In this document: positions 6,892-33,945 of the stretch, in pieces
Layout of the letters: each line of letters opens with the position of its first letter
How positions within the stretch are numbered: the stretch's first letter is position 1
Source of the DNA: a bacterium
GTDB taxonomy: Bacteria; Zhuqueibacterota; QNDG01; DTFT01
Direction of reading: 5' to 3'
Length of the DNA stretch: 38,879 nucleotides
Assembly: GCA_030372965.1 (NCBI GenBank)
Contig: JAUCQC010000229.1
Coordinates: 1-38,879 of the forward strand
The notes under the pieces: generated by a model
What the model was told of the DNA's origin: nothing
Databases searched by the model: none
Seen by the model: only the letters and a program-made list of their open reading frames with translations
Translations under genes and position numbers: made by a program

Positions 6892-8729
6892 TGAAATCCA
6901 CAGGCCGGAAAAAGACCGGGGCGAAAAGCGGCCGGCGGCCGCTCCGTCCGGTCCCTGCCGCGAAGCGGGACGCGGCGGTCCCGACCCGGCCGGGCGGCGG
7001 CATCGACGCCAGGCCCGCGGCCATTCTGATCGGCGCCGCGATTGTCCGCGTCGTGCTCATCCTCGCGTTCCGGCAGGCGGTGAGCTTCGACGAGCCCCAT
7101 TACCTCCGGCTGGCCGGGTCCTTTCTCGAACGCGGATTCACCGGGCTCCTGCACCCGTACTGGCCGCCCTTCTTTCCGCTGGTCATCGCGTTATTCAAGC
7201 CGTTGACCGGGAATCTGGAAACCGCGGGCCGGCTGGTGAACCTGCTGTCCGCGTGCGTCACGGTGTGGCTGGTGTTCCGCATGTCCGGCGCCCTGTTCGG
7301 GAAAAGGGAATCGCTGATCGCCGCCGGATTCGCGGCGTTTTACCCTCCCCTGGCATTCGCCTCCACCAATGTCATGCCGGAAACCCTGTTTTCGGCCCTG
7401 GGACTTGGAGGGATCTGGATCGCGTGGAAAGCCCTGACCGCGTCCATTCAAGCCGGACCCGGGTGGAAATCCGGACTCAGCGCAACTGCCGCCGGTCTCC
7501 TCTGGGGCGCGGCGTATCTCGTGCGGCCCGAAGGCATCGGATTTCTCCTGGTCTTTCTGGCGGCCGCGGTTCTCGTCTTCCTCTTCAGCCGGACGGACCG
7601 GAGACGCGCGGCCGCGGCCGCGGCGTGCGCGTCCGCGGGATTCCTGATTCTGGCGGCGCCGTACTGGGTTTATCTGCGGACCGAGACCGGCGCCTGGACG
7701 CTTTCGACCAAGGGTTCGGTGAACCAGCAATTCGAGTCCGCGGTCTATTTTCAGGATGAATCCAACCCGGATCCCTTCTATCACCTGACCCCGGACAACC
7801 GGCACCTGCCGGTCGACATGGCCTATCATTCCGGCACGCTCCGGGAACTGGCCGCGGTCGAGGGGGGCCGCGAACGCGTTGCGGAGATTCCCCTCTCGCG
7901 GACCGCGGTCAAGTTCGCGAGGAATTACTACCGCGTTCTCAAGCAGTACATCCCCCAGGTTTTTTCGGCCCTTCTGCTGGCGCTGTTCGGGGCAGGCCTG
8001 GCCGGCGGACTCACCGCGCCCGGGCGCTGGGGCTTCGCGGCGTACCTGCTGGCCTTTCCGGCTTTTTTCTGGCTGGCCGTGATCCCGATGTTCCACGTGA
8101 ACGAACGGTATTTTCTGCCCCTGTTCCCGCTCATGCTGCCGTGGATCGGACGGGGCGCGGTCTTCCTGTCGGAAAGGACGGCCCTTTTCCTGTCCGAATC
8201 CTTTCCGGTGCGTTTCGGCCGGAAGCCTGGACGGATCGCCGGACCGCGCGCCGCGGGGAGAATCGCGGCCGCGGTGACGACGGCCGGGATTGTCGTGTTC
8301 GGACTCCTTCCCGAAACCGCGCGCCTGGCGGGCATCCGGTCCGATTCCGCGGGCGCCTGGGCGGACCCGGTCGAATTGAAGGAGGCGGGCCGCTGGCTCC
8401 GCGCCGCGAACGGCCGGCCGCCGGTGCTGATGAGCCTCAACAAGGCCGTGGACTTTTACGCCGGACAGTACGACATGCGCAAGGGCGCGTCCTTTTCCTA
8501 TGACGACGTTTCGCGGAACCTGGCCTACGCCCGGTACCGGGGGGTGGAATACGTGGTGTTCAGCTCCAGAACCCTGTTCTGGTTCCCCAATCTCGCGCCG
8601 CTTCTCACGGAGGGCGCGCCGCCCGAGGGGCTCCGTCTCGTGTACGCGTCCGACCGGCCGCGGGGAGTCCGCACGGTGGTGTACCGCGTCGAGCCGGTCG
8701 AATCCGAAGCGGCGGGGGAGGGGCGATGA
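6891..8729 (+). CDS. GT39 family polytopic glycosyltransferase
   Basis: A PMT_2-type membrane transferase of about 612 aa. A basic cytoplasmic tail precedes the first helix ('ILIGAAIVRVVLILAFRQ'), followed by the periplasmic acidic motif 'VSFDEPHYLRLAGSFLERG'. 'PYWPPFFPLVIALFKPLTG' and the following helices match the GT39 core. The C-terminus is a soluble domain with 'YRGVEYVVFSSRTLFWFPNL'. The ATG at 6891 overlaps the upstream TGA by one base; an in-frame ATG at 6876 is possible. It is the second of three GT39-type proteins in the cluster, so lipid-carrier-dependent decoration appears to be important here. The acceptor is unknown. Confidence 0.85.
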   Translation: MKSTGRKKTGAKSGRRPLRPVPAAKRDAAVPTRPGGGIDARPAAILIGAAIVRVVLILAFRQAVSFDEPHYLRLAGSFLERGFTGLLHPYWPPFFPLVIALFKPLTGNLETAGRLVNLLSACVTVWLVFRMSGALFGKRESLIAAGFAAFYPPLAFASTNVMPETLFSALGLGGIWIAWKALTASIQAGPGWKSGLSATAAGLLWGAAYLVRPEGIGFLLVFLAAAVLVFLFSRTDRRRAAAAAACASAGFLILAAPYWVYLRTETGAWTLSTKGSVNQQFESAVYFQDESNPDPFYHLTPDNRHLPVDMAYHSGTLRELAAVEGGRERVAEIPLSRTAVKFARNYYRVLKQYIPQVFSALLLALFGAGLAGGLTAPGRWGFAAYLLAFPAFFWLAVIPMFHVNERYFLPLFPLMLPWIGRGAVFLSERTALFLSESFPVRFGRKPGRIAGPRAAGRIAAAVTTAGIVVFGLLPETARLAGIRSDSAGAWADPVELKEAGRWLRAANGRPPVLMSLNKAVDFYAGQYDMRKGASFSYDDVSRNLAYARYRGVEYVVFSSRTLFWFPNLAPLLTEGAPPEGLRLVYASDRPRGVRTVVYRVEPVESEAAGEGR

Positions 8730-9448
8730 CGCGGAAAAAAGCGTCCCCGTCCGTGCTGGCCGTGGTCCCCGCCTTCAATGAGGCCGGCGGCGTCGCGGGC
8801 GTGGTGGCCGAGATTCTGGCCGTGCGGCCGAAAGTCGACGTGCTGGTGGTGGACGACGGATCCTCGGACCGGACCGCGGAGAAGGCGGCCGCCGCGGGCG
8901 CGACCGTGGTGCGCCTGCCCTACAATCTCGGCATCGGCGGCGCGGTGCAGACGGGATTCCGCTACGCGGTCCGCAACGGGTACGACGCGGCCGTGCAGGT
9001 CGACGGCGACGGACAGCACGTGCCGTCCGACATCCCGGCCCTGCTCGCCGCGCTGGGGCCGGGCGGAGCGGACGTCGCGATCGGCTCGCGGTTCCTGAGC
9101 GCCGGGGGCTACACGACCACGCGGCTGAGGCGGGTGGGCACGCGCGTTTTCGAGCGCGTCAACTCGTGGGTGCTGGGCCAGACCATCACGGACAACACGT
9201 CGGGGTTCCGGGCCTACAACCGCAGGGCCCTCGGCTTTCTGGCGGAGAATTACCCGCAGGACTATCCCGAGCCGGAGTCCGTGGTGCTGCTCGGCCGCAA
9301 CGGGTTCCGAATACGGGAGGTGCCGATCCGCATGCGCGAGCGCGGGCACGGCCGCTCCTCCATCTCCTCGTTCCGCTCGGTCTATTACATGATCAAGGTG
9401 CTGCTCGCGATATTCGTGGACTGTTTCAAGGCCAGAACCAACCGATAG
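8726..9448 (+). CDS. DPM1-like GT2 polyprenyl-phosphate glycosyltransferase
   Basis: A compact GT2 enzyme of 240 aa. 'VLAVVPAFNEAGGVAGVVAEI' and 'DVLVVDDGSSDRTAEKAA' form the donor site. 'AAVQVDGDGQHVPSDIPALL' carries the D-D-D metal motif of dolichyl-phosphate-mannose-synthase-like enzymes, and 'VPIRMRERGHGRSSISSF' is the conserved C-terminal RxxGxSS-type segment. It lacks the C-terminal helices of ArnC/GtrB proteins, but the next gene is a DUF2304 membrane protein, a very common partner that may serve as its anchor. It probably makes the polyprenyl-phosphate-sugar used by the neighbouring GT39 enzymes (inference). The start overlaps the upstream stop as ATGA. Confidence 0.9.
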   Translation: MTRKKASPSVLAVVPAFNEAGGVAGVVAEILAVRPKVDVLVVDDGSSDRTAEKAAAAGATVVRLPYNLGIGGAVQTGFRYAVRNGYDAAVQVDGDGQHVPSDIPALLAALGPGGADVAIGSRFLSAGGYTTTRLRRVGTRVFERVNSWVLGQTITDNTSGFRAYNRRALGFLAENYPQDYPEPESVVLLGRNGFRIREVPIRMRERGHGRSSISSFRSVYYMIKVLLAIFVDCFKARTNR

Positions 9449-9455
9449 AGGGATT

Positions 9456-9854
9456 ATGCAGACCCGCATGACGATCGCCGCCGTGGGCCTCGGGCTCATT
9501 CTCCTGGCCGTGATCTTCCAGCTCATCCGCAAGAACCGGCTCCAGGAAAAGTATTCCATCCTCTGGATCGCCTCGGCGGTGCTGATGTTGGCGCTCTCGG
9601 TGTGGACGCAGCTGCTGAAGAGTTTCGCGGCGTGGATCGGGATTTTCTATCCGCCTTCGGCCCTGTTCGCGGCCGCGGTTTTCTGCGGCCTGGTCATCGC
9701 CCTCCACTATTCGGTGGTGCTTTCGACCCTGACCAGCCAGAACAAGACGCTCGCGCAGGATCTCGCCCTGCTGCGCGAGGAGGTGGACCGACTGCGGCTG
9801 GAACGCTCCGGCGGCCGGAAGAGGCCGGCCGGCAGGCGCGGAGCCCGCCGATGA
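9456..9854 (+). CDS. DUF2304 small membrane protein
   Basis: A 132-aa protein with three hydrophobic helices ('MTIAAVGLGLILLAVIFQLI', 'SILWIASAVLMLALSVW', 'PPSALFAAAVFCGLVIALHY') and a charged C-terminal helix ('TLAQDLALLREEVDRLRLE') that looks like a short coiled coil. The 'EKYSILWI' segment between the first helices is typical of DUF2304. The family has no proven enzymatic role and is found next to DPM1-like GT2 genes, as here, seven bases downstream. The likely role is membrane partner of the GT2. The start at 9456 follows an 'AGAGGGATT' stretch. The stop overlaps the next gene as ATGA. Confidence 0.85.
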   Translation: MQTRMTIAAVGLGLILLAVIFQLIRKNRLQEKYSILWIASAVLMLALSVWTQLLKSFAAWIGIFYPPSALFAAAVFCGLVIALHYSVVLSTLTSQNKTLAQDLALLREEVDRLRLERSGGRKRPAGRRGARR

Positions 9855-11122
9855 CGCGGATTTCCGAACGGCGGGAAACGGACCGGACCCTCCGCGCGCT
9901 GGCGTGGATCGTCCTGGCGGCCGTGCTGATCCGGCTGGCCTTCGTCCTGTTTTTCTCCGGTTTCACGGAACAGAACCTCGGCGATTCGGTGCGCTACAAC
10001 CGGGTCGCGAAGTTCCTGCTGGAGAGGCACGCGTTCTGGGAGTACGTCCGGAAGCCCACGGCCTTCGTGCCGCCGCTCTATCCCGCGTTCCTGGCCGGCG
10101 TGTACGGCCTTTTCGGATTCCACGCGATCGCGGTCAAGGTCATCCAGGCCCTGATCGGCGGACTGCTCCCGTGGGTCGTTTTCAAGGCCGCCCGGCGCAA
10201 CCTGGACGGCCGCACGGCCCTGGTCGCCGCGGCCTGGACCGCGGTCTATCCCGAACTGATCGTGATGACCGGTTACCTGTACACGGAAACCCTGTTCATC
10301 CTCGCGCAGGCGCTCGCGTTCGTCTTCCTGCTCGCGGCGTTCCGGGACGACCGGAGGCGCGATTGGATCGTCGCGGGCCTGCTGCTGGGCGTCAGCGTCC
10401 TGATCCGGAACATCCTCCTGATGTTCCCGGTTTTTCTGCTCCTGATCTGCCTCGCGGACGCGGAACTCCGGAAGCGCTGGAAGCGCGTCGTTCTGTCCGC
10501 GGCGGTCATGGCGGCGGTCGTCCTGCCCTGGACGGTGCGGAACGCCCTGGCTTTTCACGAATTCATACCGGTCACCACGGGCGCGGGGAACGAGTTCTGG
10601 ATCGGGAGCGACGTCAGCCGGGGCGGGCGGCACCGCCACGGCGAGTCCCTGGAGGCCATCCGGGCGCTGACCAAGGGCGCCAGGACGGAGACCGAGAAGG
10701 ACCGCATGCTCATCGCGGACGCGATCCGCAACATCCGGAGCCGGCCGCTCGGGTACGTGAAGGTGTGTCTCGGAAAGGCTTTCCGCGCCTTCTTTCAGGT
10801 CTACGAGAACGTCCCGACGGGCAGGAGCCGGCGGACCAACCCGCTCCTGCTGCTGATGCTCGGACTTTCCTACTATCCGGTGCTCGTGCTGGGCGCCGCC
10901 GGCGTATGGATCACGTCCGGCCGGTGGCGGCAGTGGCTGCCCCTGACCGCCCTGCTCGCGTACTCGGTTCTGCTGTTCACGGCGGTTCACTTCGTTCCGA
11001 GGTACCGCATTCCGCTGATTCCGTTCTGCATCGTGTTCGCGTCGGTGGCGGCCGTCCGCGCCGCGGACCGCCTCTCCGGACGGGCCGCATCCCAAGGGGG
11101 TTCATGGATCTCTCGAAAATAA
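9851..11122 (+). CDS. GT39 family membrane glycosyltransferase
   Basis: Third GT39/PMT_2-like protein, 423 aa. The first helix is 'LAWIVLAAVLIRLAFVLFFSG', followed by 'NLGDSVRYNRVAKFLLERHAFW', where the acidic catalytic position is represented by GDS rather than the usual DE. 'PPLYPAFLAGVYGLFGFHAIAVKVIQALIG' and 'TGYLYTETLFILAQALAFVFLL' are well-conserved core helices of the family. The C-terminal part is short and membrane-embedded. The ATG at 9851 overlaps the DUF2304 stop; the ORF-track start at 9602 is an out-of-frame shadow of DUF2304. The reading frame ends 19 bases inside the next gene, an unusually long overlap for this operon. Confidence 0.83.
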   Translation: MTRISERRETDRTLRALAWIVLAAVLIRLAFVLFFSGFTEQNLGDSVRYNRVAKFLLERHAFWEYVRKPTAFVPPLYPAFLAGVYGLFGFHAIAVKVIQALIGGLLPWVVFKAARRNLDGRTALVAAAWTAVYPELIVMTGYLYTETLFILAQALAFVFLLAAFRDDRRRDWIVAGLLLGVSVLIRNILLMFPVFLLLICLADAELRKRWKRVVLSAAVMAAVVLPWTVRNALAFHEFIPVTTGAGNEFWIGSDVSRGGRHRHGESLEAIRALTKGARTETEKDRMLIADAIRNIRSRPLGYVKVCLGKAFRAFFQVYENVPTGRSRRTNPLLLLMLGLSYYPVLVLGAAGVWITSGRWRQWLPLTALLAYSVLLFTAVHFVPRYRIPLIPFCIVFASVAAVRAADRLSGRAASQGGSWISRK

Positions 11123-12489
11123 TATTCATCGCCCTGTCCCTCGTCTTTTTCGCGGTCGTTCCGGCTTTCCTCCGGGATGTGCGCCGGTACTACCTGGGGA
11201 TGGCTTCCTTCATGTACGTCTTCACGTCGGGATGGGTCTTCTACCATTACACCGGCCTGATGCTGGCGGACCTGCCCATTCTGGCCCTGCTGGCCGTCAG
11301 CGTGTTCTCCGGCCGACGGATCCGTTTTTCCCAGCCGCCCGTCGGAGGGTTTCTGCTGGCCATCATCGCGCTCGGCCTGGCGTCGGCCGCCTGGAGCAAA
11401 CAGCCGGGATGGGCCATCGCGGAAATCTCCAAGTACATGCGCGGCTACCTGCTCATGGTGGTGCTCGTCCACAACATCCGCGACGTCCGGGACCTGCGGC
11501 TCGTCGTGAACGGAACCCTGGCCGGACTGCTCATCGAGTCCCTGCTCGGCATCTACCAGTGGAAATTCGGGGCGCTCGGCGTCTGGTTCCTCGGGGAAAG
11601 GCCCGCCTGGCGCGTGGACTGGAGGACGTTCGGCACGTTCTTCGTGCCCGCCTTTTACGCGAATTACGTGGCCATGGCGCTGAGCCTCTCGCTGCGCATG
11701 TTCCTCTACTACCGGCCGTCCAAGGTCGGCACGGCGGTCTACTACGGAGCCGTCTCGGTGTTCGGCCTGATCGCGCTGTACACCACGTATGCGCGGGGAC
11801 CCTGGATCGGCGCGGTGACCGGCATTCTCCTCGTGTCTCTCCTCAGCATGACCCGCGCCCGGTTCCGGCCCCGGGCGAACTGGACATTCGCGGTATTCGG
11901 AATCTTTCTGGCGGTTTTTCTGCTGCGGTACAACCAGCACATCGTCGATCAGTTCGGCGCGGGACGGAAGAAAGCGTACGAATCCCGGTTCTCCCAGGCG
12001 AACGTCGCGTACCGCATCATCGCCAAAAATCCGCTTCACGGCGTCGGGCTGGGCAATTACCAGGAAGTCTCGTGGGACTACCTGACGCCCGAGGAGAAAT
12101 CGCTGGACAGCGCGTACGTGGTGGCCTGGATGGTGCACAATTCCTACCTGCTGCTCGCGTCCGAACTGGGGATTCCGGGAGGGATCCTCTTCGTCTGCTG
12201 GTTCCTCAGCATTTTGTCCCTCGCCTGGAGGGTGCTGAATCACAGGATGCAGCATCCTTTCGTCACCCAGGTCTCGATGGGAATCCTGGGAGGGATCCTG
12301 TCCCTGATGGTTTTTCTGATTCCGGGGCCGGACATCCACGAGTACTCGCTCATGTACCAGATCTGCCTTTACAGCGGCATGCTCCTGGCCGCGAAGAACA
12401 TACTCGACCGGGCCGAGCGGACCCGGGCGCTTCGCGCCAGGTCCGGCCCGGACGGGACCTCCCCTGTCCGGGACCCATCACAATCCTGA
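11104..12489 (+). CDS. O-antigen ligase / Wzy-like polymerase
   Basis: A 461-aa polytopic membrane protein with about 11 helices, a periplasmic loop and the Wzy_C-type motif. 'TYARGPWIGAVTGILLVSLL' is the helix preceding the loop. 'NPLHGVGLGNYQEVSWDYL' and 'VVAWMVHNSYLLLASELGIPGGI' form the conserved (G)xxxN..H(N)xY motif of O-antigen ligases, polymerases and O-oligosaccharyltransferases. It would either polymerise repeat units or attach the glycan to its final acceptor; the sequence does not separate these. The ATG at 11104 overlaps the upstream gene by 19 bases; the longer track ORF is shadow. A 61-bp AT-rich gap follows, so a first transcription unit may end here. Confidence 0.87.
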   Translation: MDLSKIIFIALSLVFFAVVPAFLRDVRRYYLGMASFMYVFTSGWVFYHYTGLMLADLPILALLAVSVFSGRRIRFSQPPVGGFLLAIIALGLASAAWSKQPGWAIAEISKYMRGYLLMVVLVHNIRDVRDLRLVVNGTLAGLLIESLLGIYQWKFGALGVWFLGERPAWRVDWRTFGTFFVPAFYANYVAMALSLSLRMFLYYRPSKVGTAVYYGAVSVFGLIALYTTYARGPWIGAVTGILLVSLLSMTRARFRPRANWTFAVFGIFLAVFLLRYNQHIVDQFGAGRKKAYESRFSQANVAYRIIAKNPLHGVGLGNYQEVSWDYLTPEEKSLDSAYVVAWMVHNSYLLLASELGIPGGILFVCWFLSILSLAWRVLNHRMQHPFVTQVSMGILGGILSLMVFLIPGPDIHEYSLMYQICLYSGMLLAAKNILDRAERTRALRARSGPDGTSPVRDPSQS

Positions 12490-12550: not shown

Positions 12551-13249
12551 ATGCTGAAATTGATACACGACAAATTGACCCAGGCGATTTGCCGGCTGAA
12601 AAGGGGCCGTCAAATTCAACCCGATCAAGGGGTTGTAAAAGTCAACCTCGGGGCGGGTCTGCATGTCGCTCCGGGCTGGTACAACGTGGACGGCCACCTG
12701 CGGGCATTTTTTTCCACATGGCCTGATTTTGTGATCCACTGGCTGTACCGGGTCATCCAGACCTCGAATCAGGAGTTCACCCGGGAAGCGTACACGCGGA
12801 TCCTGAAGGAAAACCGGTACATCCACCACGATCTGACTTATGGAATACCGTTCCGGGACGGAAGCGTGGATTTCCTGTACGCCTCCCACCTGCTGGAACA
12901 CCTGCACCGGGACGAGGCGGAACGGCTGATACGGGAGGCGGTGCGGGTGCTCAAGCCGGGCGGCGTTTTCCGCGTGGCCGTTCCGGACCTGGCGCACGCC
13001 ATGGATCTTTACCGGAAGGGCGAGAAGCGCCTCTCCCTCGGGTATTTCTTCAATGAATCGAAACAGGACAACTACACCTATCACCGTTACCTGTACGACG
13101 AGGAACTCCTGACGGACGCGCTGATCCAGGGCGGATTCGCCTCGGTGAAACGCTGCGCGTACCGGCAGGGAGTCACCCCCGACGCCGGAACTCTGGACAA
13201 CCGGCCCGAGGAATCGCTCTATGTGGAGGCGTTCAAACAGTCCCCATGA
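12551..13249 (+). CDS. Class I SAM-dependent methyltransferase
   Basis: A 232-aa Rossmann-fold methyltransferase. Motif I is unusual but readable ('VNLGAGLHVAPGWYNVD', residues 31-47), a form seen in methyltransferases of polysaccharide loci. 'DLTYGIPFRDGSVDFLYASHLLEHL' gives motifs II/III, with 'HLLEHL' typical of Methyltransf_11. 'EAVRVLKPGGVFRVAVPDLAHAM' is the post-motif segment. The start lies after a short AT-rich gap, and its own stop overlaps the next GT4 start (ATGA), so the two are coupled. It probably O-methylates a sugar or a nascent chain end. The target is inferred from context only. Confidence 0.87.
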   Translation: MLKLIHDKLTQAICRLKRGRQIQPDQGVVKVNLGAGLHVAPGWYNVDGHLRAFFSTWPDFVIHWLYRVIQTSNQEFTREAYTRILKENRYIHHDLTYGIPFRDGSVDFLYASHLLEHLHRDEAERLIREAVRVLKPGGVFRVAVPDLAHAMDLYRKGEKRLSLGYFFNESKQDNYTYHRYLYDEELLTDALIQGGFASVKRCAYRQGVTPDAGTLDNRPEESLYVEAFKQSP

Positions 13250-14526
13250 AGGTGCTCCTGTCCGACAAATATTATTTCGTCCGGGGGGGAGCCGAACGGT
13301 ATTTCTTCGACCTGAAGGCCGTGCTGGAGGCGAACGGCCACACGGTCATCCCTTTTTCGATGCGGCACCCGGACAACTTTCCGACGCCGTACGACCGGTA
13401 TTTCGTGGACCGCATCGAATTCGACGCGCGGGGTCCGGCGCAGAAGGCGCGGGTCGGCCTGCAGTCCATCGGCCGGATCTTCTGGTCGACCCAGGCCGCG
13501 GACCGGCTGGGCCGCCTGGTGCGCGACACCCGGCCGGACATCGCGCACCTGCACATGATCGATCACCAGATTTCGCCCTCCATACTCCCGGTCCTGCGGA
13601 GGGCGGGCGTTCCCGTGGTGCAGACGGTTCACACGTACAAGCTGGTGTGCCCGACCTACCGACTCTACCACATGGGCCGGAACCGCGTCTGCGAGAAGTG
13701 CCTCGGCGGATTCTACTGCCGCGCGCTCGCGGAGCGGTGCCACAAGGATTCGTTCTGGGCGACGCTTCTGCTCGCGGCTGAAACGTCGTTCCACAAGGCG
13801 GGCCGGTTCTATGAGCGCGGCATCGACCGTTTTCTCGTGCCGAGCCGGTTCATGGGCCGCAAGCTCGAGGAGGGCGGCATCCGGCCCGACCGGATCCGGC
13901 ACCTGCCCTACACGATCGATCTCTCCGCGTACCGCCCTTCGTTCCGCGCCGGCCGCTACGGCCTGTACATGGGGCGGCTCTCCGCGGAAAAGGGGATCAA
14001 AACCCTTCTACGGGCCGCGGCGGCCGGGTTCGAATGGCCGCTCGTCATCGCCGGCGAAGGGCCGCAGCGGGCCGAACTCGAAGCGTTCGCGTCCGAACGG
14101 GGCCTCACGCGGGTGCGTTTCGCGGGCCGGCTCGACGGCGAAAAACTGAGGAATACGATCGACGGCGCGGGCTTCGTGGTGGTTCCGTCCGAGTGGCACG
14201 AGAACTCGCCGCTGGTCGTCTATGAATCGTTCGCCATGGGCAAGCCGGTCATCGGCGCGGCCATGGGCGGCATTCCCGAGCTCATCTCGGACGGCGTGGA
14301 CGGCGCGCTGTTCCCCGCCGGGGACGCCGAAGCCCTGGCGCGGCGGCTCTCCGAATTCGCCCGCCGGGGGCCGGCCGGCCTGTCCGTCATGGGCCGCGCG
14401 AGCCGGCGCAAGGCCGAGAGGCTCTTCTCGCCGGAACCCCATTACCGGGAACTGTCCGGCATCTACCGGGAACTGGTCGACCGGGCGAAAACACGTCGCC
14501 GGGTGGGCGACCGGAATCACGAATGA
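13246..14526 (+). CDS. GT4 glycosyltransferase with cysteine cluster
   Basis: A 426-aa GT-B transferase. 'YYFVRGGAERYFFDLKAVLEANGH' is the N-terminal glycine-rich acceptor-side motif, and 'YMGRLSAEKGIKTLLRAA' starts the donor domain. 'PSEWHENSPLVVYESFAMGKPVIGAAMGGIPELI' is the classic E(x7)E region. Between residues 135 and 165 there are five cysteines ('CPTYRLYHMGRNRVCEKCLGG..CRALAERC'), an insertion known in a subset of bacterial GT4 enzymes and possibly metal-binding. It is coupled to the methyltransferase by ATGA. A 64-bp gap separates it from the secreted-protein pair. Donor and linkage are unknown. Confidence 0.9.
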   Translation: MKVLLSDKYYFVRGGAERYFFDLKAVLEANGHTVIPFSMRHPDNFPTPYDRYFVDRIEFDARGPAQKARVGLQSIGRIFWSTQAADRLGRLVRDTRPDIAHLHMIDHQISPSILPVLRRAGVPVVQTVHTYKLVCPTYRLYHMGRNRVCEKCLGGFYCRALAERCHKDSFWATLLLAAETSFHKAGRFYERGIDRFLVPSRFMGRKLEEGGIRPDRIRHLPYTIDLSAYRPSFRAGRYGLYMGRLSAEKGIKTLLRAAAAGFEWPLVIAGEGPQRAELEAFASERGLTRVRFAGRLDGEKLRNTIDGAGFVVVPSEWHENSPLVVYESFAMGKPVIGAAMGGIPELISDGVDGALFPAGDAEALARRLSEFARRGPAGLSVMGRASRRKAERLFSPEPHYRELSGIYRELVDRAKTRRRVGDRNHE

Positions 14527-14590: not shown

Positions 14591-16435
14591 ATGAGGACGC
14601 GTCGCACCATCTGGGGGATACTGGCGCTGGGTCTGCTGGCCGCGGCGGGGACCGCTTCGGCCGCGATGACGCAGGAGCAGGTGTTTCAGGCCAAGAAGAG
14701 CCATTACCTCTCCACCGACGGCGAAACCCTGCTCATGTACCACGAGCGCGTCTGGGGGTGGCTCGAGAAGATCCGGAACGGCACCATGAGCCCCTCCCAG
14801 CCGGTGAAGGACGTCGGCGGCGTGTACCGGCCCGTGAGCGAGGTCATCAGCAAGATCATCCGATGCTGGGGCACCACCTGGACGGCCAGCGGCTACCCCA
14901 CCTACGGATATGCGTGGTTTTTCGGGGAATGGTACTCCAATCTCGCGCTGATCTACATGTACCTGGAATACAACGCCGAGTTGACCAGCGCGGACCGGCT
15001 TTTCATCCAGAATGTGTACAACAACGCGATCACCTCCCGGGACTTCGGACCCGGTTCCGAGAACAGCCGGATGTTCGACATGGTGGGGCGGTATCTCTGG
15101 GTGCAGTACTACAAGTCGACCAATGTCACCTATTCGTACAACCCGCCTCCCACGACCAACATTTACGCTTTCAGCTGGGGCGGACGCTCGTACACGCCCG
15201 GCGGCACCTACAACGCCTATCAGCTGGCGACCGACTGGATCTATTACTTCATGGACAAATGGGTGTCCAGCGGAAACGCCGAACTGGACAGCCCGCACTA
15301 CACCTGGTGCCTTTTCTACGCCTACTGGGCGCTCTATGATCACGCGCTGGACGAGACCATGCGGAGGAAGGCCCGGATGATGCTGGACTTTCTGTTCCTG
15401 GAGTCCGGCATGGATTACAGCGCCAACCACTGGGGCGGGGCGCTGGGCCGCGTCTACGGGGTGACGATCGCGGGCGGACGGACGAGGATGTACTGGGACT
15501 TCTTCTTCGAGGGGGCCGCGGCCACGGGGTACGAGCCCAGCTATTCCGTGATCGCGTCCGATTACCGGCTCCCGGACGTGGTCTGGGACGCCATCGATCT
15601 GAACGATGAGCCGGACAATTACTACCACATCAACATGGAGTACAACGGCAGCATCGTGTACGCCTCCGGCACCGGAAAGTGGAACTACGTCACCAAGTAC
15701 TACAATCTCGGGGGCCGGATCGGGGCCGGGTGGCAGCTCTGCGTCAAATCGACGGACACGCCCGGCTCGTTCAACCATCCGGGGACGCCCTTCATCGCCT
15801 GGATCAACACCTACGACACGGGCGGGGGGAGCAGTACGCCCGCCCAGGGCGAGACCTACATCACCCAGGGAGAATCCGGGTTTCAATACCGAAACGCCCT
15901 GTTCAGCTGGGGATACAAGTGGCACGAGGCCATCTCTCCGAACAGCTGGGATCTCAACCAGAAGGAAGGGAACTGGCAGTTCTTCAAGGAAGGCCGGACC
16001 ATGGTGGCCGTGATCCGGGACAGCGTCAACAAGGTGTCGGGCATGGAAGTGGGCATCGAGGGCGTCGATTACGCAACCTGGGACGACTTCAAGCGGGCGA
16101 TCCGCGGAAACGCCGCCCTGGCCGTCTGGAGCTTCACCACGAGCCGCGGCAACAAGATCAGCTGCAAGGCCCTGCCCGGCAGGGTGGACTGGGACGCCGT
16201 GGTCATGAGACCGGGCGACGCCGACTACTCCTTCGTCTGGCCCTACCCCTTCCAGCGCATTCAAACGGTCGACTACCGCAACCAGGCGATCGTGCGCTGG
16301 GAGGGGAACAAGCTGATCGTCAAGAAGCACGGCCGACAGCGCATCTATGACTTCAACTCCTGGACGTGGACGGACTCGGCCGCGGGAGACGACACGACCC
16401 CGCCCGCGGCGCCGGTCGGCGTCAACGTGCGGTAG
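14591..16435 (+). CDS. Secreted aromatic-rich protein, possible alpha/alpha-toroid polysaccharide-active enzyme
   Basis: A 614-aa exported protein. The signal peptide is 'MRTRRTIWGILALGLLAAAGTASA' with an AxA-type cleavage site. Residues about 25-420 are helical and very rich in Tyr/Trp, with repeated helix pairs such as 'YNAYQLATDWIYYFMDKWVSSG' and 'HYTWCLFYAYWALYDHALDETMRRKARMMLDFLF', then 'HWGGALGRVYG'. This looks like an (alpha/alpha) toroid of heparinase or alginate-lyase type. The rest looks like beta structure ('GNWQFFKEGRTMVAVIRDSV'). I cannot assign a family or catalytic residues with confidence. It ends in 'DDTTPPAAPVGVNVR', like the start of an FN3 domain that is absent. A good 'GGAGGAGACACTC' RBS precedes the ATG. 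Confidence 0.75.
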   Translation: MRTRRTIWGILALGLLAAAGTASAAMTQEQVFQAKKSHYLSTDGETLLMYHERVWGWLEKIRNGTMSPSQPVKDVGGVYRPVSEVISKIIRCWGTTWTASGYPTYGYAWFFGEWYSNLALIYMYLEYNAELTSADRLFIQNVYNNAITSRDFGPGSENSRMFDMVGRYLWVQYYKSTNVTYSYNPPPTTNIYAFSWGGRSYTPGGTYNAYQLATDWIYYFMDKWVSSGNAELDSPHYTWCLFYAYWALYDHALDETMRRKARMMLDFLFLESGMDYSANHWGGALGRVYGVTIAGGRTRMYWDFFFEGAAATGYEPSYSVIASDYRLPDVVWDAIDLNDEPDNYYHINMEYNGSIVYASGTGKWNYVTKYYNLGGRIGAGWQLCVKSTDTPGSFNHPGTPFIAWINTYDTGGGSSTPAQGETYITQGESGFQYRNALFSWGYKWHEAISPNSWDLNQKEGNWQFFKEGRTMVAVIRDSVNKVSGMEVGIEGVDYATWDDFKRAIRGNAALAVWSFTTSRGNKISCKALPGRVDWDAVVMRPGDADYSFVWPYPFQRIQTVDYRNQAIVRWEGNKLIVKKHGRQRIYDFNSWTWTDSAAGDDTTPPAAPVGVNVR

Positions 16436-16457
16436 CCGTCCGCGGCCCGTGGACGGC
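16435..16457 (+). terminator. GC-rich hairpin after the secreted toroid-like gene
   Basis: An 11-bp stem (GCCGTCCGCGG / CCGTGGACGGC, one G-U pair) begins at the last base of the preceding stop codon. No U-tract follows, so it may slow decay or attenuate readthrough rather than end transcription outright. Confidence 0.35.
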
Positions 16458-16513
16458 CGGCAGGTTGTCGCGTTTCACGCGCTGGTGATGGAACTTTTTT
16501 CGTGAGGTGTGAT

Positions 16514-18439
16514 ATGATCCGAATGCCCGCAACCGATCGGTCCTTTCCCGCCCCGCGCCTCCCGCGGAAGGCGGCCGCGCTCCTTGCGGTTCTTCTTCTC
16601 GGAACGGCGCCCGGCCTGCGGGGGCAGGACGTCAACCCCCCCTATCCGCGGCTGGGGATTTTCACCTTCAGCGGGCAGACCTACGCGAGCCTTGACATCC
16701 TGAAGGACTTCGACATCATCGGAATCACGCCCAACAACGAACAGGCCCGCCGGTTCAAGGCGCAGAATCCGAACGTCATCATGCTGGCGGCCGCGGCCAT
16801 GTTCATCAACGAGCGGCTCAGCTACAGCGGCGTCAACAACCTGCCGGAATCGTGGTTCTTTCACGACGTCTCCGGGAAGCGGTTCGAGACGTGGGACAAC
16901 GTGTACCGGATGAACGTGTCGCCCTTCTGCCCGAAGGTGGACATGGGCGACGGTTACGGCCCCAGCCAGTACGCGGATTACGCGCTCCGGTTCGTGCAGT
17001 CCCGCATCGACTTCACCGCGTTTGACGGCATTTTCCACGACTGGTGGTGGAACCAGGTCGGATGGTCGCAGGCCAGGACCGGCGACTTCAACAACAACGG
17101 AATCGCCGACATGGACGAGTGGGGCGGCCCCGATTCCGTGAACGCGGTCTGGTGGCGGTCCATCCACGCCTACCACGACCGGGAATACAGCCTGCCCGGG
17201 CTGAAATACGTGGTGGTGCAGCTGGGCGGCGTGCCCTGGCCCAACGTGAACGGCGGCTGTTACGAGGATTTCCCCATGTACAACGGCCCCTTCGCGTACT
17301 GGCTGTCGCACTACACGGACGACATCACGACGAAGCGGACGCCCTCCCTGACCCTCATGAACGCCTCGCACCGCTTCTACCACCTGTATTTTCCGGTTGA
17401 ACCGTACAAGAACAACTACCGATCCGTGCGTTACAACCTGGCCGCCTGCCTGCTCACGCAGGCGTACTTCTACGTCGACGAGGGGAACGAACTCGGGCAC
17501 CACGGCAACGTGCACATCTACGACGAATTCGAGGCCAAGGGCATGCTCGGCTACCCGAGGTCGGCCCCGATCAAGCTGGAGGGAAAGACGCTCGCGTCCA
17601 CGCCGTGGGCCAGCGGGGTGTGGGTGCGGTTCTTCGACAACGGCGTCAGCATCATCAACGCCACGGGCCTGCCCCAGACGATCACGGCCTCGGAGCTGGC
17701 GATGGTCGATCCGGCCGGCGGACAGCCGTACTACCGTTTCCTCGGGGGCCAGGATCCCGCCACGAACAACGGACAGCAGGTGACCGACGCGAATCCCGTC
17801 TCCCTCTGGGGCGACATCCGGACCACCGCCGTGACCAATCCGGAGGTGTTCGGCGACGGCGCCATGCTGTTCCGGACACGGAGGACCCTGATCACGCCCA
17901 TCGTGGTCGACAACAACGTGAACAACCAGACGTCCCCGGGATCGGATCCCGTGCAGTACTCGGGGAGCTGGGTGCTGAGTTCGGACGGCGACAAGTATTA
18001 CGCGTTCTACACCGGCCGTGATTACGCCGAGTTCCAGCCGAACGGGTTCGCCTGGTGCCCGCCCGGGAGCGGGGAGAACACGGCCGTGTACGTGCCGACG
18101 ATCGGCACGCCCGGCATGTACGAGGTGTCCGAGTGGCACGGCTACCGCGGGAACTCGGAGACGAGTTATCCGCTTTCGTCCGCCGTTCCCGCGCGGATCG
18201 TCTGTTCCGGAAAGGACACTTCGCTCACGATCGATCAGACCAGGAACTTCGGGCAGTGGAACAAACTGGGTGTCTTTCCGTTCGACAAGGGGACTTCGGG
18301 CAGGGTCACGCTGTCGAACAAGACATCCGGCATCGTCCTATCCGACGCCATCCGTTTCACTTACAAGGGCCCCGTTTCTGGGTACGACACCACGCCGCCG
18401 TCTCCGCCCCGGGATGTCCGCGTCGTGCCGCTCCGGTGA
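16514..18439 (+). CDS. Secreted GHL15-like putative glycoside hydrolase with golvesin-like C-terminal domain
   Basis: A 641-aa exported protein. The signal peptide contains 'AALLAVLLLGTAPGLRGQ'. The TIM-barrel-like catalytic part begins 'YPRLGIFTFSGQTYASLDILKDFDIIGI'. It has the acidic strand-end motifs 'FDGIFHDWWWNQ' (about residue 168) and 'GGCYEDFP', and the late segment 'NYRSVRYNLAACLLTQAYFYVDE'. This order matches the hypothetical glycosyl hydrolase family GHL15. Residues about 484-620 ('AVYVPTIGTPGMYEVSEWHGYRG', 'SLTIDQTRNFGQWNKLGVFPF', 'SDAIRFTYKG') resemble the golvesin C-terminal/CBD-like domain. The ATG at 16514 has 'GAGG' six bases upstream; GTG 16502 and ATG 16523 are alternatives. 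It ends 'DTTPPSPPRDVRVVPLR', a tail shared with the upstream gene. Confidence 0.78.
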   Translation: MIRMPATDRSFPAPRLPRKAAALLAVLLLGTAPGLRGQDVNPPYPRLGIFTFSGQTYASLDILKDFDIIGITPNNEQARRFKAQNPNVIMLAAAAMFINERLSYSGVNNLPESWFFHDVSGKRFETWDNVYRMNVSPFCPKVDMGDGYGPSQYADYALRFVQSRIDFTAFDGIFHDWWWNQVGWSQARTGDFNNNGIADMDEWGGPDSVNAVWWRSIHAYHDREYSLPGLKYVVVQLGGVPWPNVNGGCYEDFPMYNGPFAYWLSHYTDDITTKRTPSLTLMNASHRFYHLYFPVEPYKNNYRSVRYNLAACLLTQAYFYVDEGNELGHHGNVHIYDEFEAKGMLGYPRSAPIKLEGKTLASTPWASGVWVRFFDNGVSIINATGLPQTITASELAMVDPAGGQPYYRFLGGQDPATNNGQQVTDANPVSLWGDIRTTAVTNPEVFGDGAMLFRTRRTLITPIVVDNNVNNQTSPGSDPVQYSGSWVLSSDGDKYYAFYTGRDYAEFQPNGFAWCPPGSGENTAVYVPTIGTPGMYEVSEWHGYRGNSETSYPLSSAVPARIVCSGKDTSLTIDQTRNFGQWNKLGVFPFDKGTSGRVTLSNKTSGIVLSDAIRFTYKGPVSGYDTTPPSPPRDVRVVPLR

Positions 18440-18744: not shown

Positions 18745-20703
18745 ATGAGTTATAAGTTCTATTCATTCAAGGACCCGAATGAACACAATCTGGAGCAATG
18801 GTCCCAGAGAACCGTGGAAGGCGAGCTTGGAAGCATCCGGGGCCGGACGCTGGAGGGCATTTTCGGGCGCCATCTCCGCGATCGTTCCGTGAACATTCTC
18901 GAGGCGGGATGCGGGCTCGGCGGATGGGTCATTGACCTGAAGGAAAAGGGGTTCCGGATCACGGGCGTTGATTTCGACCCCCGCATCGTCGAACGCGTCC
19001 GGGCCCACGACAAGCGGATCCCGGTCGAAGTCGGGGACGTCTGCCGTCTTCGTTTCAAGGACGGTTCCTTCGGCGCGTACATCTCCCTGGGCGTTGTCGA
19101 GCATTTTGAAGAGGGGCCGGAACAGGCACTTCGCGAGGCGTACCGCGTGCTTCGGCCGGGCGGCCTGGCGTTCATCACGGTTCCGTATCTGAACGGTTTC
19201 CGCAAACTGTGGGTCCATCCGCTGCGGAACCTGTTTTTCGGCGTGCGCCGGCAGATCCTCGGGAAAAGGGACTATTTCTGGGAATACCGCTACACCCGCA
19301 AGGAATTGGCGGATTTTCTCGCGCAGGCCGGCTTTGAAATACTGGAAACCACGATTGACGATTATGCGGAGGCCGACCGCAGGCACCACATCGGGCTCTA
19401 CGCGGATTTTTTCTTCCTGAGAAAAAAGAAAGGCGGCATCTGGGAGCTGAACGCCCCGGGAAGACTCCTGCTCCGGATCGCGCGTAAATTTTCCCCCTGG
19501 CTTGTCTGTTCGGGCCTGCATATCGTGGCCCGCAAGCCGGTTCAACGGATCGGGCCGGCAGGACCGCAGGCTTCCCGAAGGCGGATACGCGTTTTACAGC
19601 TGGTCGAAGGCTTCAACCTGGGCGGCGCGGAGAAAAAACTGCTTGAGCTGGTCCGGATGATGGATCCCGCCCGCTTCAAAACCGTGGTGTGCAGCCTGGG
19701 TCTCGGCGACCGGATCCGACCGGAGTTTGACCGGCTCGGAAACGCGGGCGTGGATGTGACCGTCCTTCCGCGCAGGAGCCGCGTGGATCCCATTCAGATT
19801 CACCGGTTGATCCGGCTGATCCGGAAACACCGCATCGATGTCATCATGACCACGCTGTTTTACGCGGACGTCATGGGACCCATCGCCGGGAGAATCGCCG
19901 GCGTCAGGGGCATTTTCAGCTGGGAGACGATTTCGGCCCCGGAGTGGCTGATTTCGCGACGGCTCTGGCCGTATCGATTCGTCATCCGTCTGGCCGACGG
20001 TGTCGTGTCCGTTTCCCGGGCCACCGCGGAGTGGCTGCAGGCCAAAAGGGGGGTTCCCGCCGGTAAAATACGGGTCATCCCCTACAGCGTGGACCTGAAC
20101 CGATTCACGACCGGCGAGGGGAAAAGCGTTCGCAAAAGGCTGGGCATCGGTCCTCGGGATGTCGTGGTCGGAATGGTCGGACGGCTTCATCCCCAGAAGG
20201 GGCAGACCTATCTCATCCAGGCGGCGCCGAAAATCATCCAAAGCGAGCCCAGAGTCCGTTTTGTCCTGATCGGCGACGGAGAATCGCGGCCGGAACTCGA
20301 GGCCCGGATCCGAAACGCGGGCCTGGAGAAGCGCTTCCTCCTCCTCGGTTTCCGGCAGGATGTGCATGAAATCCTGCACGCGATCGATATTTTCACGCTT
20401 CCCTCCCTGTATGAGGGGCTTCCGAATGTCATCCTCGAGGCCATGGCCGCCGGCAAACCCGTTGTCGCGACATCCGTCGACGGCACGAAAGAGCTCATTG
20501 AACACGGGAAAACCGGCCTGTTGATCCCCCCCGGGGATCCGGACCGGCTGGCCGAAGCGATCATCCAATTGATCCGGAACAGGGAACGGGCGGCCCGGAT
20601 GGGCCGGGAGGCCAGGAAAAACATCGAGAAAAATCATTCCATCGAAAACCAGATCCGGGCTTTTGAGGAATTGTACGAGAATACCTGCCGGGAAAAACCC
20701 TGA
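18745..20703 (+). CDS. Methyltransferase-GT4 glycosyltransferase fusion
   Basis: A 652-aa two-domain protein. Residues 1-265 are a class I SAM methyltransferase: motif I 'ILEAGCGLGGWVIDL' (51-65), 'GVDFDPRIVERVR', and 'SLGVVEHFEEGPEQALREAYRVLRPGG'. After a basic linker a full GT4 begins at about residue 280: 'RIRVLQLVEGFNLGGAEKKLLELV', then 'VVGMVGRLHPQKGQTYLIQAA', and the donor motif 'PSLYEGLPNVILEAMAAGKPVVATSVDG'. Both halves look intact, so it can plausibly transfer a sugar and methylate it or a chain end. ATG 18745 follows a purine-rich 'AGAAGAGGATGAACCGGA' leader. Codon use is slightly less GC-extreme than the neighbours. It is the only gene between a strong terminator and a 400-bp gap, so it is probably transcribed alone. 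Confidence 0.9.
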   Translation: MSYKFYSFKDPNEHNLEQWSQRTVEGELGSIRGRTLEGIFGRHLRDRSVNILEAGCGLGGWVIDLKEKGFRITGVDFDPRIVERVRAHDKRIPVEVGDVCRLRFKDGSFGAYISLGVVEHFEEGPEQALREAYRVLRPGGLAFITVPYLNGFRKLWVHPLRNLFFGVRRQILGKRDYFWEYRYTRKELADFLAQAGFEILETTIDDYAEADRRHHIGLYADFFFLRKKKGGIWELNAPGRLLLRIARKFSPWLVCSGLHIVARKPVQRIGPAGPQASRRRIRVLQLVEGFNLGGAEKKLLELVRMMDPARFKTVVCSLGLGDRIRPEFDRLGNAGVDVTVLPRRSRVDPIQIHRLIRLIRKHRIDVIMTTLFYADVMGPIAGRIAGVRGIFSWETISAPEWLISRRLWPYRFVIRLADGVVSVSRATAEWLQAKRGVPAGKIRVIPYSVDLNRFTTGEGKSVRKRLGIGPRDVVVGMVGRLHPQKGQTYLIQAAPKIIQSEPRVRFVLIGDGESRPELEARIRNAGLEKRFLLLGFRQDVHEILHAIDIFTLPSLYEGLPNVILEAMAAGKPVVATSVDGTKELIEHGKTGLLIPPGDPDRLAEAIIQLIRNRERAARMGREARKNIEKNHSIENQIRAFEELYENTCREKP

Positions 20704-21125
20704 GGGCTGACCCGTGTCCAATTGACCCCGCGGGCTTTCAAGGTAATTTAATCCGGTCGATTGACCCCGCTCCGCCGGAGACTCCAGTCTCCGCGCATCA
20801 TGGGATGGAACGCGGATCGGGCGGACGCCGCGGTGGCGGCGCGCGGATTCCCGCGGATAGAGCGAGGGGACAGGGTAATTCTTCGATCGGAACGCCGATC
20901 ATCCGTCCTCCTGTTCCGAAGCGCGAATATGGTGTCCAGTTTGAATCGGAACGGGAATCCTCTGACAGGCCTAAAATCCGCAAAAAATTTTGCTTCGAGC
21001 CCGTTTATTACGTAAATTAAATCTCCCATGACTCATTCCGTCAGGATGCGAACCATTCCGATTCCGAACGCGGAAACGCCCGATCGGCCGGTCCCGCCGG
21101 CTCTTGTCCGGTGAGAGGTCCCGGC
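20704..21125. other. Intergenic region with short repeats and hairpins
   Basis: No convincing gene lies in these 420 bases; the ORFs in the track have no recognisable pattern. An 11-bp direct repeat ATTGACCCCGC occurs at 20721 and 20760. A tight hairpin GGAGACT-CC-AGTCTCC lies at 20777-20792, and a second, GATCGG-AACG-CCGATC, lies near 20885. The phrase 'GGGGACAGGGTAATT' near 20867 resembles ends of small degenerate repeats common in environmental genomes. This may be a decayed mobile or REP-like element. The last 60 bases carry the leader of the flippase gene. Confidence 0.4.
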
Positions 21126-22535
21126 ATGCCCAGTCTCTTCCGAAACACGTTTTACATTTCCCTGACCCAGGGCTGGCAGATGATCATGGCCCTGATTCTC
21201 TTCAAGACGGCCACGGTGGGGCTGGGCGAGGCGGGATTCGGGGTCTACACGCTGGCCATGACCCTGATGTATTTCGTCCTGCTGTTCGACGACTTCGGCG
21301 TCACCACTCTGGTCACGCGCGACATCGCCCGCAGTCCGTCCCGGAGCGGACCCGTGCTGGCCGGCGCGATGGGCCTCAAGATCCTCCTCGTGCCGGTCAG
21401 CTTCGCCTTTCTCGGCGTCTACACCGCCCTGACCGGGCCCGATTCCGTGACCTGCCGCGTGATCTGGATCACCGCCGTGTACGGGCTGAGCTCGTCCTTC
21501 ACCCAGCTCGTCTTCGCCGTGTTCCGCGGCCACGAGCGCATGCAGTACGAGACGCTGACCGTGCTGGTCGAGAAAACGCTGTCGACCGCCCTCTGCGTGG
21601 CCGCCGTACGCGCCCGCCTGGGCCTCGAGGCATTCGCGCTCGGTTTCACGCTGGCGGGGGCCGTCTCCCTGGGACTCTCGCTCCTGATCCTGCGCAGACG
21701 CTTCCATGCGGCCGGCGTCCGGACGGACATCCGGGAGAGCCGACGCCTGTTCCGGGAATCGCTTCCGTTCGGGCTGGCCCTGTTCGTCACGTATTCGTAC
21801 GGCCAGTTCTCCGTGCCGATTCTACGTCAGATGCGGGGCGACGCGGCCGTGGGCCTGTACGGCGCGGCCCAGAAGCTCATGAGCTTCACCAACCTGATTC
21901 CGATGGTCTTCGCGACCGCCTTTTTCCCGCGTCTCTCGGCCGTGTCCGCGGACCGGGAGGAAACCTCCCGGGTTTTCACCCTGGGCCTGAAGGCGCTCTT
22001 CATGATCGCGGCGCCGCTCGTGCCGGGCGTGCTCCTCACCGGGGACCGGCTGATCCTCCTGCTCGCGGACGCCCGGTACGCGGCCGCATCGGCGGCGCTC
22101 AACGTGCTGGCCTTCGCCGCGGCGCTCAATTTTTTCAACGTCTTTCTGGCGAGCCTGTACAACGCGGTGAACCGCCAGCGCCTGTTTCTCGCCTTCGAGG
22201 CGGGCGCGCTCGCCTGCAACATCGTCTTCAACCTCCTGCTCATCGGCCGGTTCTCCTTCATGGGCGCGGCCTGGACCACCTTGATCACGGAGACGTGCAT
22301 GTTCCTGCCCGCCATGGGGTGGGCGCTGGCGCGGCTGGCGCGGATCACGGAATGGGCCGTCTGGCCCAGAGTGCTGGCCGCGACGGCCGTCATGGCGGTC
22401 TTTCTTGCGGCCACGCCCGGGTGGTCCGTTCTGCTGGCCGTCCCGGCCGCGGTCGCCGTGTACGCCGCGGCCCTGCTGGCTTTCCGGGCGGTGTCGATCA
22501 CCGAAATCAGGACGCAAATGGCGGCGCTGAGATGA
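21126..22535 (+). CDS. Second polysaccharide flippase (MOP superfamily)
   Basis: A 469-aa polytopic protein with about 12-14 hydrophobic helices. The start 'MPSLFRNTFYISLTQGWQMIMALILFKTATVGLGEAGFGVYTLAMTLMYFVLLFDDFGVTTLVTRDIAR' is the classic Polysacc_synt N-terminus with the 'G..GFG.Y.....' and 'FG...L..RDIAR' motifs. 'LFVTYSYGQFSVPILRQMRGDAAVGLYGAAQKLMSF' is a well-conserved central region. ATG 21126 has 'GAGAGG' seven bases upstream and is preferred over GTG 21111. It overlaps the following UPF0104-like gene by ATGA. It differs clearly from the flippase at 3426, so it is not a recent duplicate; the two may serve different lipid-linked glycans. Confidence 0.88.
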   Translation: MPSLFRNTFYISLTQGWQMIMALILFKTATVGLGEAGFGVYTLAMTLMYFVLLFDDFGVTTLVTRDIARSPSRSGPVLAGAMGLKILLVPVSFAFLGVYTALTGPDSVTCRVIWITAVYGLSSSFTQLVFAVFRGHERMQYETLTVLVEKTLSTALCVAAVRARLGLEAFALGFTLAGAVSLGLSLLILRRRFHAAGVRTDIRESRRLFRESLPFGLALFVTYSYGQFSVPILRQMRGDAAVGLYGAAQKLMSFTNLIPMVFATAFFPRLSAVSADREETSRVFTLGLKALFMIAAPLVPGVLLTGDRLILLLADARYAAASAALNVLAFAAALNFFNVFLASLYNAVNRQRLFLAFEAGALACNIVFNLLLIGRFSFMGAAWTTLITETCMFLPAMGWALARLARITEWAVWPRVLAATAVMAVFLAATPGWSVLLAVPAAVAVYAAALLAFRAVSITEIRTQMAALR

Positions 22536-27780: not shown

Positions 27781-28173
27781 GTGAAAATTGTAATCGACAC
27801 TTCGGCTATAATTTCAGTAATAACAAATGAGAAGAATAGAAATGCACTAATAAAAATTACGAAGGGAGAATCAATAATTGCCCCCAACTCAATGCACTTT
27901 GAGATAGGAAATGCTTTTTCAGCTATGTTAAAGCGTAATAGAATTTCTATTGATAATGCTTTATTGGCAATAAAATCTTATGAAAAGATACCAATTCAAT
28001 TCTGTCCCATAGATCTCGAAAAATCGATAAAAATATCCTCGAAACTAAATATATATGCTTATGATGCATATTTTATCGAGTGCGCAGAAAGAAACAGATC
28101 GCCAATATTATCATTGGATCAGGGGATGATTGATGCTGCAAAATCATACGGTATAAAAATAATTGAGGTTTGA
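27781..28173 (+). CDS. PIN-domain (VapC-like) toxin
   Basis: A 130-aa PIN-domain ribonuclease. The four acidic active-site residues are present: Asp6 in 'VIDTSA', Glu41 in 'HFEIGNAF', Asp95 in 'YAYDAYFIECA', and Asp113 in 'LSLDQGMIDAA'. The length is typical of VapC, which cleaves RNA (often tRNA) with Mg2+ or Mn2+ when its antitoxin is degraded. The start is GTG at 27781. Base composition is strongly AT-rich, unlike the GC-rich host genes. The antitoxin gene begins one base after the toxin stop; toxin-first order is the reverse of most vapBC operons. It lies between two attC-like sites, so it is probably an acquired cassette. Confidence 0.9.
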   Translation: MKIVIDTSAIISVITNEKNRNALIKITKGESIIAPNSMHFEIGNAFSAMLKRNRISIDNALLAIKSYEKIPIQFCPIDLEKSIKISSKLNIYAYDAYFIECAERNRSPILSLDQGMIDAAKSYGIKIIEV

Positions 28174-28174
28174 A

Positions 28175-33714: not shown

Positions 33715-33887
33715 CCGTTTCTTCGCCCCGGCAGGATATCCCGCAAATCATTGGTTTTCAGGTAAGAACGGGCAGAATCGCCGATCCTGCCTTCCGTTTT
33801 CCGCTCTCCAAAGCCGCGGACCCCGCGTTCGACTTCATGCATCCGGACGACAACGGCCTCCCGGTTTTCTATCTTGCAGCCGTTCAC

Positions 33888-33913: not shown

Positions 33914-33945
33914 AGGGATTCATTCATCAAGGCTGCGAGGACTTC

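Follow-up and report, generated by a model that had tools for sequence, protein, structure and literature searches.

A 38,879-nucleotide stretch of contig JAUCQC010000229.1 (assembly GCA_030372965.1; the whole stretch is called the window here), from a metagenome-assembled genome (MAG) of a KSB1/Calditrichota bacterium, carries two neighbouring genes, P1 and P2, that encode secreted proteins. The explanation we favour, with some reservation, is that their products are a cooperating pair of exported glycan-processing proteins, addressed to the cell surface by a short C-terminal tail that both carry. P1 and P2 would belong to a Wzx/Wzy-type exopolysaccharide assembly locus. The Golvesin_C module of P2, which is of the xanthan-lyase type, would hold the cell's own glycan while a GHL15/PbFucA-type TIM barrel hydrolyses it via Asp176 and Glu251. 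On uronate-containing parts of that glycan P1 would carry out beta-elimination or C5-epimerisation, with Asn158, Tyr237 and His346 serving this chemistry at the interface between its toroid and its sandwich. Finally, the shared tail would bring both enzymes to the same cell-surface site, as a localisation or docking tag.

14591..16435, + strand: P1, a 614-residue secreted protein, lyase/epimerase-like (open reading frame (ORF), coding signal, AlphaFold2 model and phylum-wide homologues)
16514..18439, + strand: P2, a 641-residue secreted protein with a GHL15-type TIM barrel (residues about 45-350), a beta-sandwich and a Golvesin_C module (residues 479-616)

A sequence-only reading of this DNA had proposed that 14591-18439 encodes two large secreted proteins, lodged between glycosyltransferase (GT) and flippase genes and acting as a glycan-processing pair. 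The ORFs are as it described, with a third-position guanine-plus-cytosine content of 0.89 each, coding-type like that of the neighbouring genes, and with N-termini that look like signal peptides from their sequence and hydrophobic peaks. The flanks also agree, with a GT4 gene on one side and a methyltransferase-GT4 fusion and a flippase on the other. The proposal of a processing pair is supported by this context and by the fold of P2. The genes are 78 bp apart, and a GTG at 16502 is an alternative start for P2. The source MAG is 3.28 Mb and ~85% complete.

P1 and P2 behave as a pair in their adjacency, in their fusion and in their C-terminal modules, which are of one type on both proteins in each lineage that was checked. 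They are adjacent or near each other in KSB1 genomes, and are adjacent as well in MAGs labelled Phycisphaeraceae (L095), Chloroflexi (L143 and L144) and Patescibacteria (L133), off-phylum assignments that could reflect MAG binning errors. The two are fused in a single ORF in L048 (KSB1, 1877 aa) and in L135 (Patescibacteria, 1504 aa). The pair in the Phycisphaeraceae-labelled MAG (L095, 8229-11851) has KSB1-type tails, reflecting either gene transfer or a binning error. A third protein, of PL8 type and with the same tail, directly follows P2 in L060 and L069/L098, and the L060 copy has sequence matches to chondroitin AC lyase and xanthan lyase.

P1 and P2 are found with glycan loci more often than chance would allow. 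Regions were probed with the GT, flippase, Wzy and PMT proteins of the window. Three or more genes of these kinds lay in 22 of the 28 homologous regions and in none of 20 control regions from genomes of the same phylum, a small set picked by hand at arbitrary positions. The co-occurrence with glycan clusters on which the sequence-only reading had turned is therefore present in relatives, and the GT/flippase/Wzy context is kept across many families of the phylum. Of 99 genomes, 67 have P2 homologues and 43 have P1 homologues, many of the latter being weak matches to a related family. The closest named relative of the window is MAG contig JAFGAX010000008.1, on which P2 is 92% identical, the other named matches are mostly from candidate division KSB1 or Calditrichota, and no viral relatives of P2 were found. 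From this gene context we infer that the substrate may be the organism's own glycan. Two genes of the UDP-sugar dehydrogenase family lie elsewhere in the genome, so that uronate synthesis is possible.

The enzymatic assignment is firmer for P2, which is quite probably a glycosidase of the GHL15/PbFucA type.

17039..17041, + strand: P2 Asp176, candidate catalytic acid, present in 29/31 homologues and aligned with the second Asp of PbFucA 'DGVFMD'
17264..17266, + strand: P2 Glu251, candidate catalytic acid, present in 30/31 homologues and aligned with a Glu of PbFucA
17084..17119, + strand: P2 residues 191-202, EF-hand-like calcium loop DxNxNGxxDxxE, with D191 and D199 in 31/31 and E202 in 28/31 homologues
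17948..18361, + strand: Golvesin_C (PF25275) module of the xanthan-lyase C-terminal type (Pfam E 3.6e-17, 63.1 bits against a cut-off of 31.6)

The label GHL15-like, given to P2 from the sequence alone, was right: P2 itself scores 19.6 bits against Pfam GHL15 (PF14885), below the curated cut-off of 27, and several of its homologues reach 27-53.1 bits. A profile of 31 P2 homologues has matches in PbFucA (8rg5) at E 3.7e-8, in the GHL15 protein 9nhf at E 7.5e-7 and, at E 4.2e-24, in the C-terminal domain of a Paenibacillus xanthan lyase (6f2p). The AlphaFold2 model of P2 has a predicted local distance difference test score (pLDDT) of 84.3, and its Foldseek matches in the PDB include GH168 endo-1,3-fucanases (TMt 0.64) and PbFucA (TMt 0.67; 8rg3, E 7e-11), as well as the PelA hydrolase domain (TMt 0.60), Ega3 (0.54) and xanthan lyase. 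FunA, an enzyme of GH168, requires its residues D206 and E264 (PMC7401878). The conserved loop at residues 191-202 looks like a calcium site and is missing from the alignment with PbFucA. The Golvesin_C module is probably glycan-binding; the literature on golvesin offered nothing direct. GHL families had been put forward as probable TIM-barrel glycosidases and remained for the most part uncharacterised at the time of the Cwp19 structure; the gene for Cwp19 lies in an anionic polymer locus (PMC5765458). Longer P2 homologues (L061 8938-11742, L065, L066, L067, L068, L079 and L080) have gained an FN3 domain and a further beta-sandwich module, with the tail again at the end; the extra module resembles one in the L060 PL8-type protein, which in turn has a lectin and rhamnosidase B among its PDB matches. 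A Chloroflexi MAG (L113, 7004-18210) has three P2 paralogues in 11 kb, all with SLH-like C-termini.

P1 is the more difficult member of the pair, and the chances that it is a lyase appear to us evenly balanced.

15062..15064, + strand: P1 Asn158, candidate charge-neutralising residue, invariant in 12 P1 homologues
15299..15301, + strand: P1 Tyr237, candidate general acid/base, invariant in 19 homologues
15626..15628, + strand: P1 His346, candidate second catalytic residue, present in 11/12 homologues

Its AlphaFold2 model, built from a 12-sequence alignment (pLDDT 77.7, predicted template-modelling score 0.82), is an alpha-toroid (about 28-335) followed by a beta-sandwich (about 345-597). The earlier description of P1 as toroid-like thus holds for the modelled layout and found no significant database or fold match; structure prediction and fold search speak strongly for the GHL15/PbFucA barrel and conserved acids of P2, and more weakly for P1, where there is a layout and no significant match. 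The order Asn158-Tyr237-His346 is that of the toroid lyases PL12, PL17, PL35 and PL39, which have an Asn, Tyr and His triplet in common (table in PMC12088678). Asn158 aligns with the Asn of 'ENHL' in a related family, A5, His346 aligns with a conserved His of the same family, and the segment around Tyr237 is paired by hhalign with the 'ExSxxYH' segment of Hepar_II_III, a pairing that is not significant alone. The best 15 Foldseek matches include a PL17 lyase (E 0.011, TM 0.23, the best lyase match) and chondroitin ABC lyase (E 0.037); there are also beta-propeller matches with TM near 0.1 that are probably spurious. P1 is not detectable as a PL8 protein (hhalign E 0.043 across 42 columns), and its membership of a recognised lyase family was rejected, as the Pfam, NCBIfam, PDB profile, Foldseek and hhalign results were all non-significant. 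The link to lyases is thus suggestive only, a lead and not a family membership. P1 is also related to a multi-copy family of the phylum (600-840 aa; hhalign E 6.5e-34) that has no Pfam or PDB matches. Its members in L035, L036, L037, L038, L039 and L040 point to a broad, undescribed toroid-type family in KSB1.

What the sequence-only reading had not noticed is the tail with which both proteins end, along with the xanthan-lyase-type module of P2 and the conservation of the pair in several phyla.

16382..16432, + strand: P1 C-terminal tail, ending DDTTPPAAPVGVNVR and then the stop (profile E 2.3e-5 in its own genome)
18386..18436, + strand: P2 C-terminal tail, DTTPPSPPRDVRVVPLR and then the stop (profile E 2.9e-5 in its own genome)

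Both ends follow the pattern D-TTPP-xx-P-x-G/D-V-x-V with 0-5 residues after it, and the general motif of the tail, D-x-TPP-x-PP-x-G/N-V-x-V, resembles strand A of an FN3 domain. Residues 604-614 of P1 are modelled with pLDDT below 50, and P605 and P608 within them are invariant in 12 homologues. The tail is present on almost every P1 or P2 homologue of the phylum. Searches with a profile (A3) of 36 such C-terminal tails, taken from P1, P2 and their neighbours, gave the genome-wide counts. Within their own genome P1 and P2 are its two clear matches, accompanied by six weaker ones; the extra matches of an earlier pattern search are out of frame, and the tail appears limited here to P1 and P2. 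Specificity for the pair across the phylum was ruled out by the further tailed proteins found there. When A3 was run on ten and then 62 genomes of the phylum, the motif lay within 8 residues of the stop in 59 of 66 unique top matches, and in regions fetched so as to avoid P1 and P2 it was C-terminal in 24 of 26 (one of the 24 runs to the contig end). In 17 genomes of other phyla, all six matches were internal FN3 or FN3-like starts, a control that rules out the tail as a product of chance. Since A3 was trained on tails of P1, P2 and their neighbours, its matches to P1 and P2 are expected, and it is the unrelated proteins that provide independent evidence. These secreted proteins include a GH39 enzyme with DUF2961, GH30, apiosidase-like, PL8 and alginate-lyase-like enzymes, phytase and purple acid phosphatase, together with beta-helix and BNR proteins and a DUF2271 protein with CarboxypepD_reg. 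The same motif therefore closes otherwise unrelated exported proteins, as a C-terminal localisation tag would.

The strongest argument for a localisation role is that the tail sits where other lineages have modules for surface attachment or complex assembly. P1 and P2 have C-termini of the same type in all 15 genomes in which both could be read. Both are tailed in 12 of these (11 KSB1 genomes and L095). Both end in Dockerin_1 in L144, in an SLH-like module in L143 (74% identical between P1 and P2 over 199 residues, with the SLH score of P2 just below cut-off), and in a dockerin-like repeat in L133 (57% identical over 80 residues, without a Pfam score). As these modules are exchanged on the same enzymes, the localisation hypothesis lends itself to a direct test. 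Judging from the motif and its distribution, we consider it about as likely as not that the tail serves as a new C-terminal tag for localisation. A more speculative elaboration, which we regard as rather unlikely, is that it represents a new class of tags free of any membrane segment, in which an isolated peptide resembling FN3 strand A adds as a beta-strand to an FN3-like receptor, either on the cell surface or on the exopolysaccharide export machinery, and so co-assembles glycan-processing enzymes. No hydrophobic stretch lies in the last 60 residues or behind the motif, and a search for exosortase gave no match in the genome, which at ~85% completeness is not proof of its absence. With neither a membrane helix nor an exosortase match, the tail was ruled out as a PEP-CTERM signal. 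The literature on KSB1 sorting signals yielded nothing direct. Two other proteins of the window (33874-35748 and 36151-38052) end in FlgD_ig/Por_Secre_tail-like domains, so that this genome also uses another C-terminal sorting-type domain. Elsewhere (L219, L223/L280, L270 and L279), tailed phytase-like and purple-acid-phosphatase-like secreted proteins lie side by side, possibly as tagged phosphorus-scavenging sets.

The genes around the pair are largely those of polysaccharide assembly.

11119..12489, + strand: O-antigen ligase/Wzy_C polymerase-type protein (Pfam E 2.3e-16)
13246..14526, + strand: GT4 glycosyltransferase upstream of P1 (Pfam)
18745..20703, + strand: methyltransferase-GT4 fusion downstream of P2 (Pfam)
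21111..22535, + strand: Wzx-type flippase (Pfam Polysacc_synt E 4e-34)

The transferases of the flanks are of the GT4 and GT2 types; upstream there are further GTs, PMT_2 proteins, a second flippase and RmlD (Pfam), and a GT4 gene adjoins P1 in the sister genome G001 and in G005 as well. No RNA families were found in the window. An otherwise gene-poor part of it has two small overlapping ORFs (27781-28393) that by eye resemble a PIN-domain toxin (130 aa) and an antitoxin of the Phd/YefM type (76 aa).

Several observations weigh against a surface-addressed processing pair. P1 has no Pfam, NCBIfam or PDB sequence or profile match and no Foldseek match below 0.001, hhalign gives it no significant similarity to the phylum's heparinase-type proteins (E 0.19), and its Asn-Tyr spacing is 79 as against about 54 in PL families, a difference for which a beta-hairpin insert modelled between Asn158 and Tyr237 could account. 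Some P2 loci (for example L113, L120 and L144) lack window-like GT genes nearby, no receptor for the tail was found, and an extra P2 copy in G006 (L045) is without the tail. That homologue (7949-10363) is cut at the contig end, so that only its C-terminal half is present, and has FG-GAP and UnbV_ASPIC domains instead. Finally, GH5 and GH130 proteins and a sodium:solute symporter are encoded downstream in the window and could indicate glycan use over synthesis. The pair might then be a scavenging module, in which surface enzymes degrade foreign polysaccharide as food and the proximity of GT genes is incidental. The symporter and GH130 are found in the sister genome too, and some tailed proteins elsewhere, such as the phytase and GH39 proteins, look degradative. 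Among the mapped loci, however, the symporter and GH130 are limited to the window and its congener, whereas the GT/flippase/Wzy context is conserved phylum-wide, and we consider scavenging unlikely.

Alternatively, P1 may be a uronate C5-epimerase or some other non-cutting modifier, and the pair may mature the polymer during synthesis as opposed to trimming it. P1 homologues do sit in synthesis loci, and epimerases occur in such loci, as AlgG does in those for alginate. Human dermatan sulfate epimerase 1 also has the same alpha-toroid plus beta-sandwich fold, with His205, Tyr261 and Tyr473 (PMC8006597). Nevertheless, P1 has no detectable similarity to epimerases, and the tailed PL8-type lyase that adjoins P2 in L060/L098 favours a cutting enzyme, which leaves this alternative improbable in our estimation. 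With regard to the tail, it is conceivable, if rather unlikely, that it is a mere leftover of an FN3 start or an unstructured linker with no sorting role. Its motif equals the strand with which FN3 domains begin, some P1 and P2 homologues continue there into a complete FN3 domain, and the tail is disordered in the P1 model. Such a remnant sits poorly with the longer homologues that have gained FN3 and end in the tail again (L056, L061, L065), with tail prolines among the few invariant columns of P1, with the C-terminal position of the motif on many unrelated secreted proteins in this phylum and its internal position in others, and with the joint exchange of the tail on P1 and P2 for dockerin or SLH-like modules. 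As for a continuation of FN3 in another frame past the stop, none was seen in the short gap between P1 and P2. That P1 and P2 only bind the glycan, as non-catalytic matrix or adhesin proteins, is in our view very unlikely: the glycan-binding-type module of P2 and the lack of known activity among its closest KSB1 relatives would fit such a role, but residues D176 and E251 in P2 and N158 and Y237 in P1 vary little or not at all.

A few model bacteria are known to have hydrolases and lyases in their exopolysaccharide loci. The locus described here adds a conserved two-enzyme version from a largely uncultured phylum, complete with candidate catalytic residues. In its barrel, P2 is akin to GHL15, to PbFucA (GH114-like) and to the GH168 endo-fucanases by profile match, by fold and by the alignment of its two acids, but it differs in the EF-hand-like calcium loop, the beta-sandwich, the Golvesin_C module, the low identity (about 12-14%) and the setting in a synthesis locus. 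With the PelA hydrolase domain and Ega3 it has in common a related TIM barrel, secretion and an association with genes for polysaccharide machinery; unlike them, it shows no sequence match, belongs to a Wzx/Wzy locus and not to a Pel synthase, and lacks a deacetylase domain. The Golvesin_C module corresponds to the C-terminal domain of Paenibacillus xanthan lyase (PL8, 6f2p), an enzyme that the tailed PL8-type neighbour in L060 also matches and to which P1 has no detectable PL8 similarity. P1 has the alpha-toroid and beta-sandwich layout and the Asn...Tyr...His order of the toroid lyases PL12, PL15, PL17, PL21, PL35 and PL39, without a significant sequence or fold score and with other spacing.

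The tail suggests how such enzymes may stay at the site of polymer export, and as a short sequence it could be used to find enzymes of KSB1/Calditrichota that are directed to the surface. In being a short C-terminal motif common to unrelated secreted proteins it resembles the PEP-CTERM signals handled by exosortase, which are linked to exopolysaccharide (PMC1569441), and the MYXO-CTERM signals handled by myxosortase (PMC11980579). It differs from both in having neither a transmembrane helix nor a basic cluster, and in the missing exosortase match in the genome. In Chloroflexi and Patescibacteria MAGs, P1 and P2 have dockerin and SLH modules in this C-terminal place, but these are folded modules of about 60 residues or more, whereas the KSB1 tail is about 12-20 residues long.

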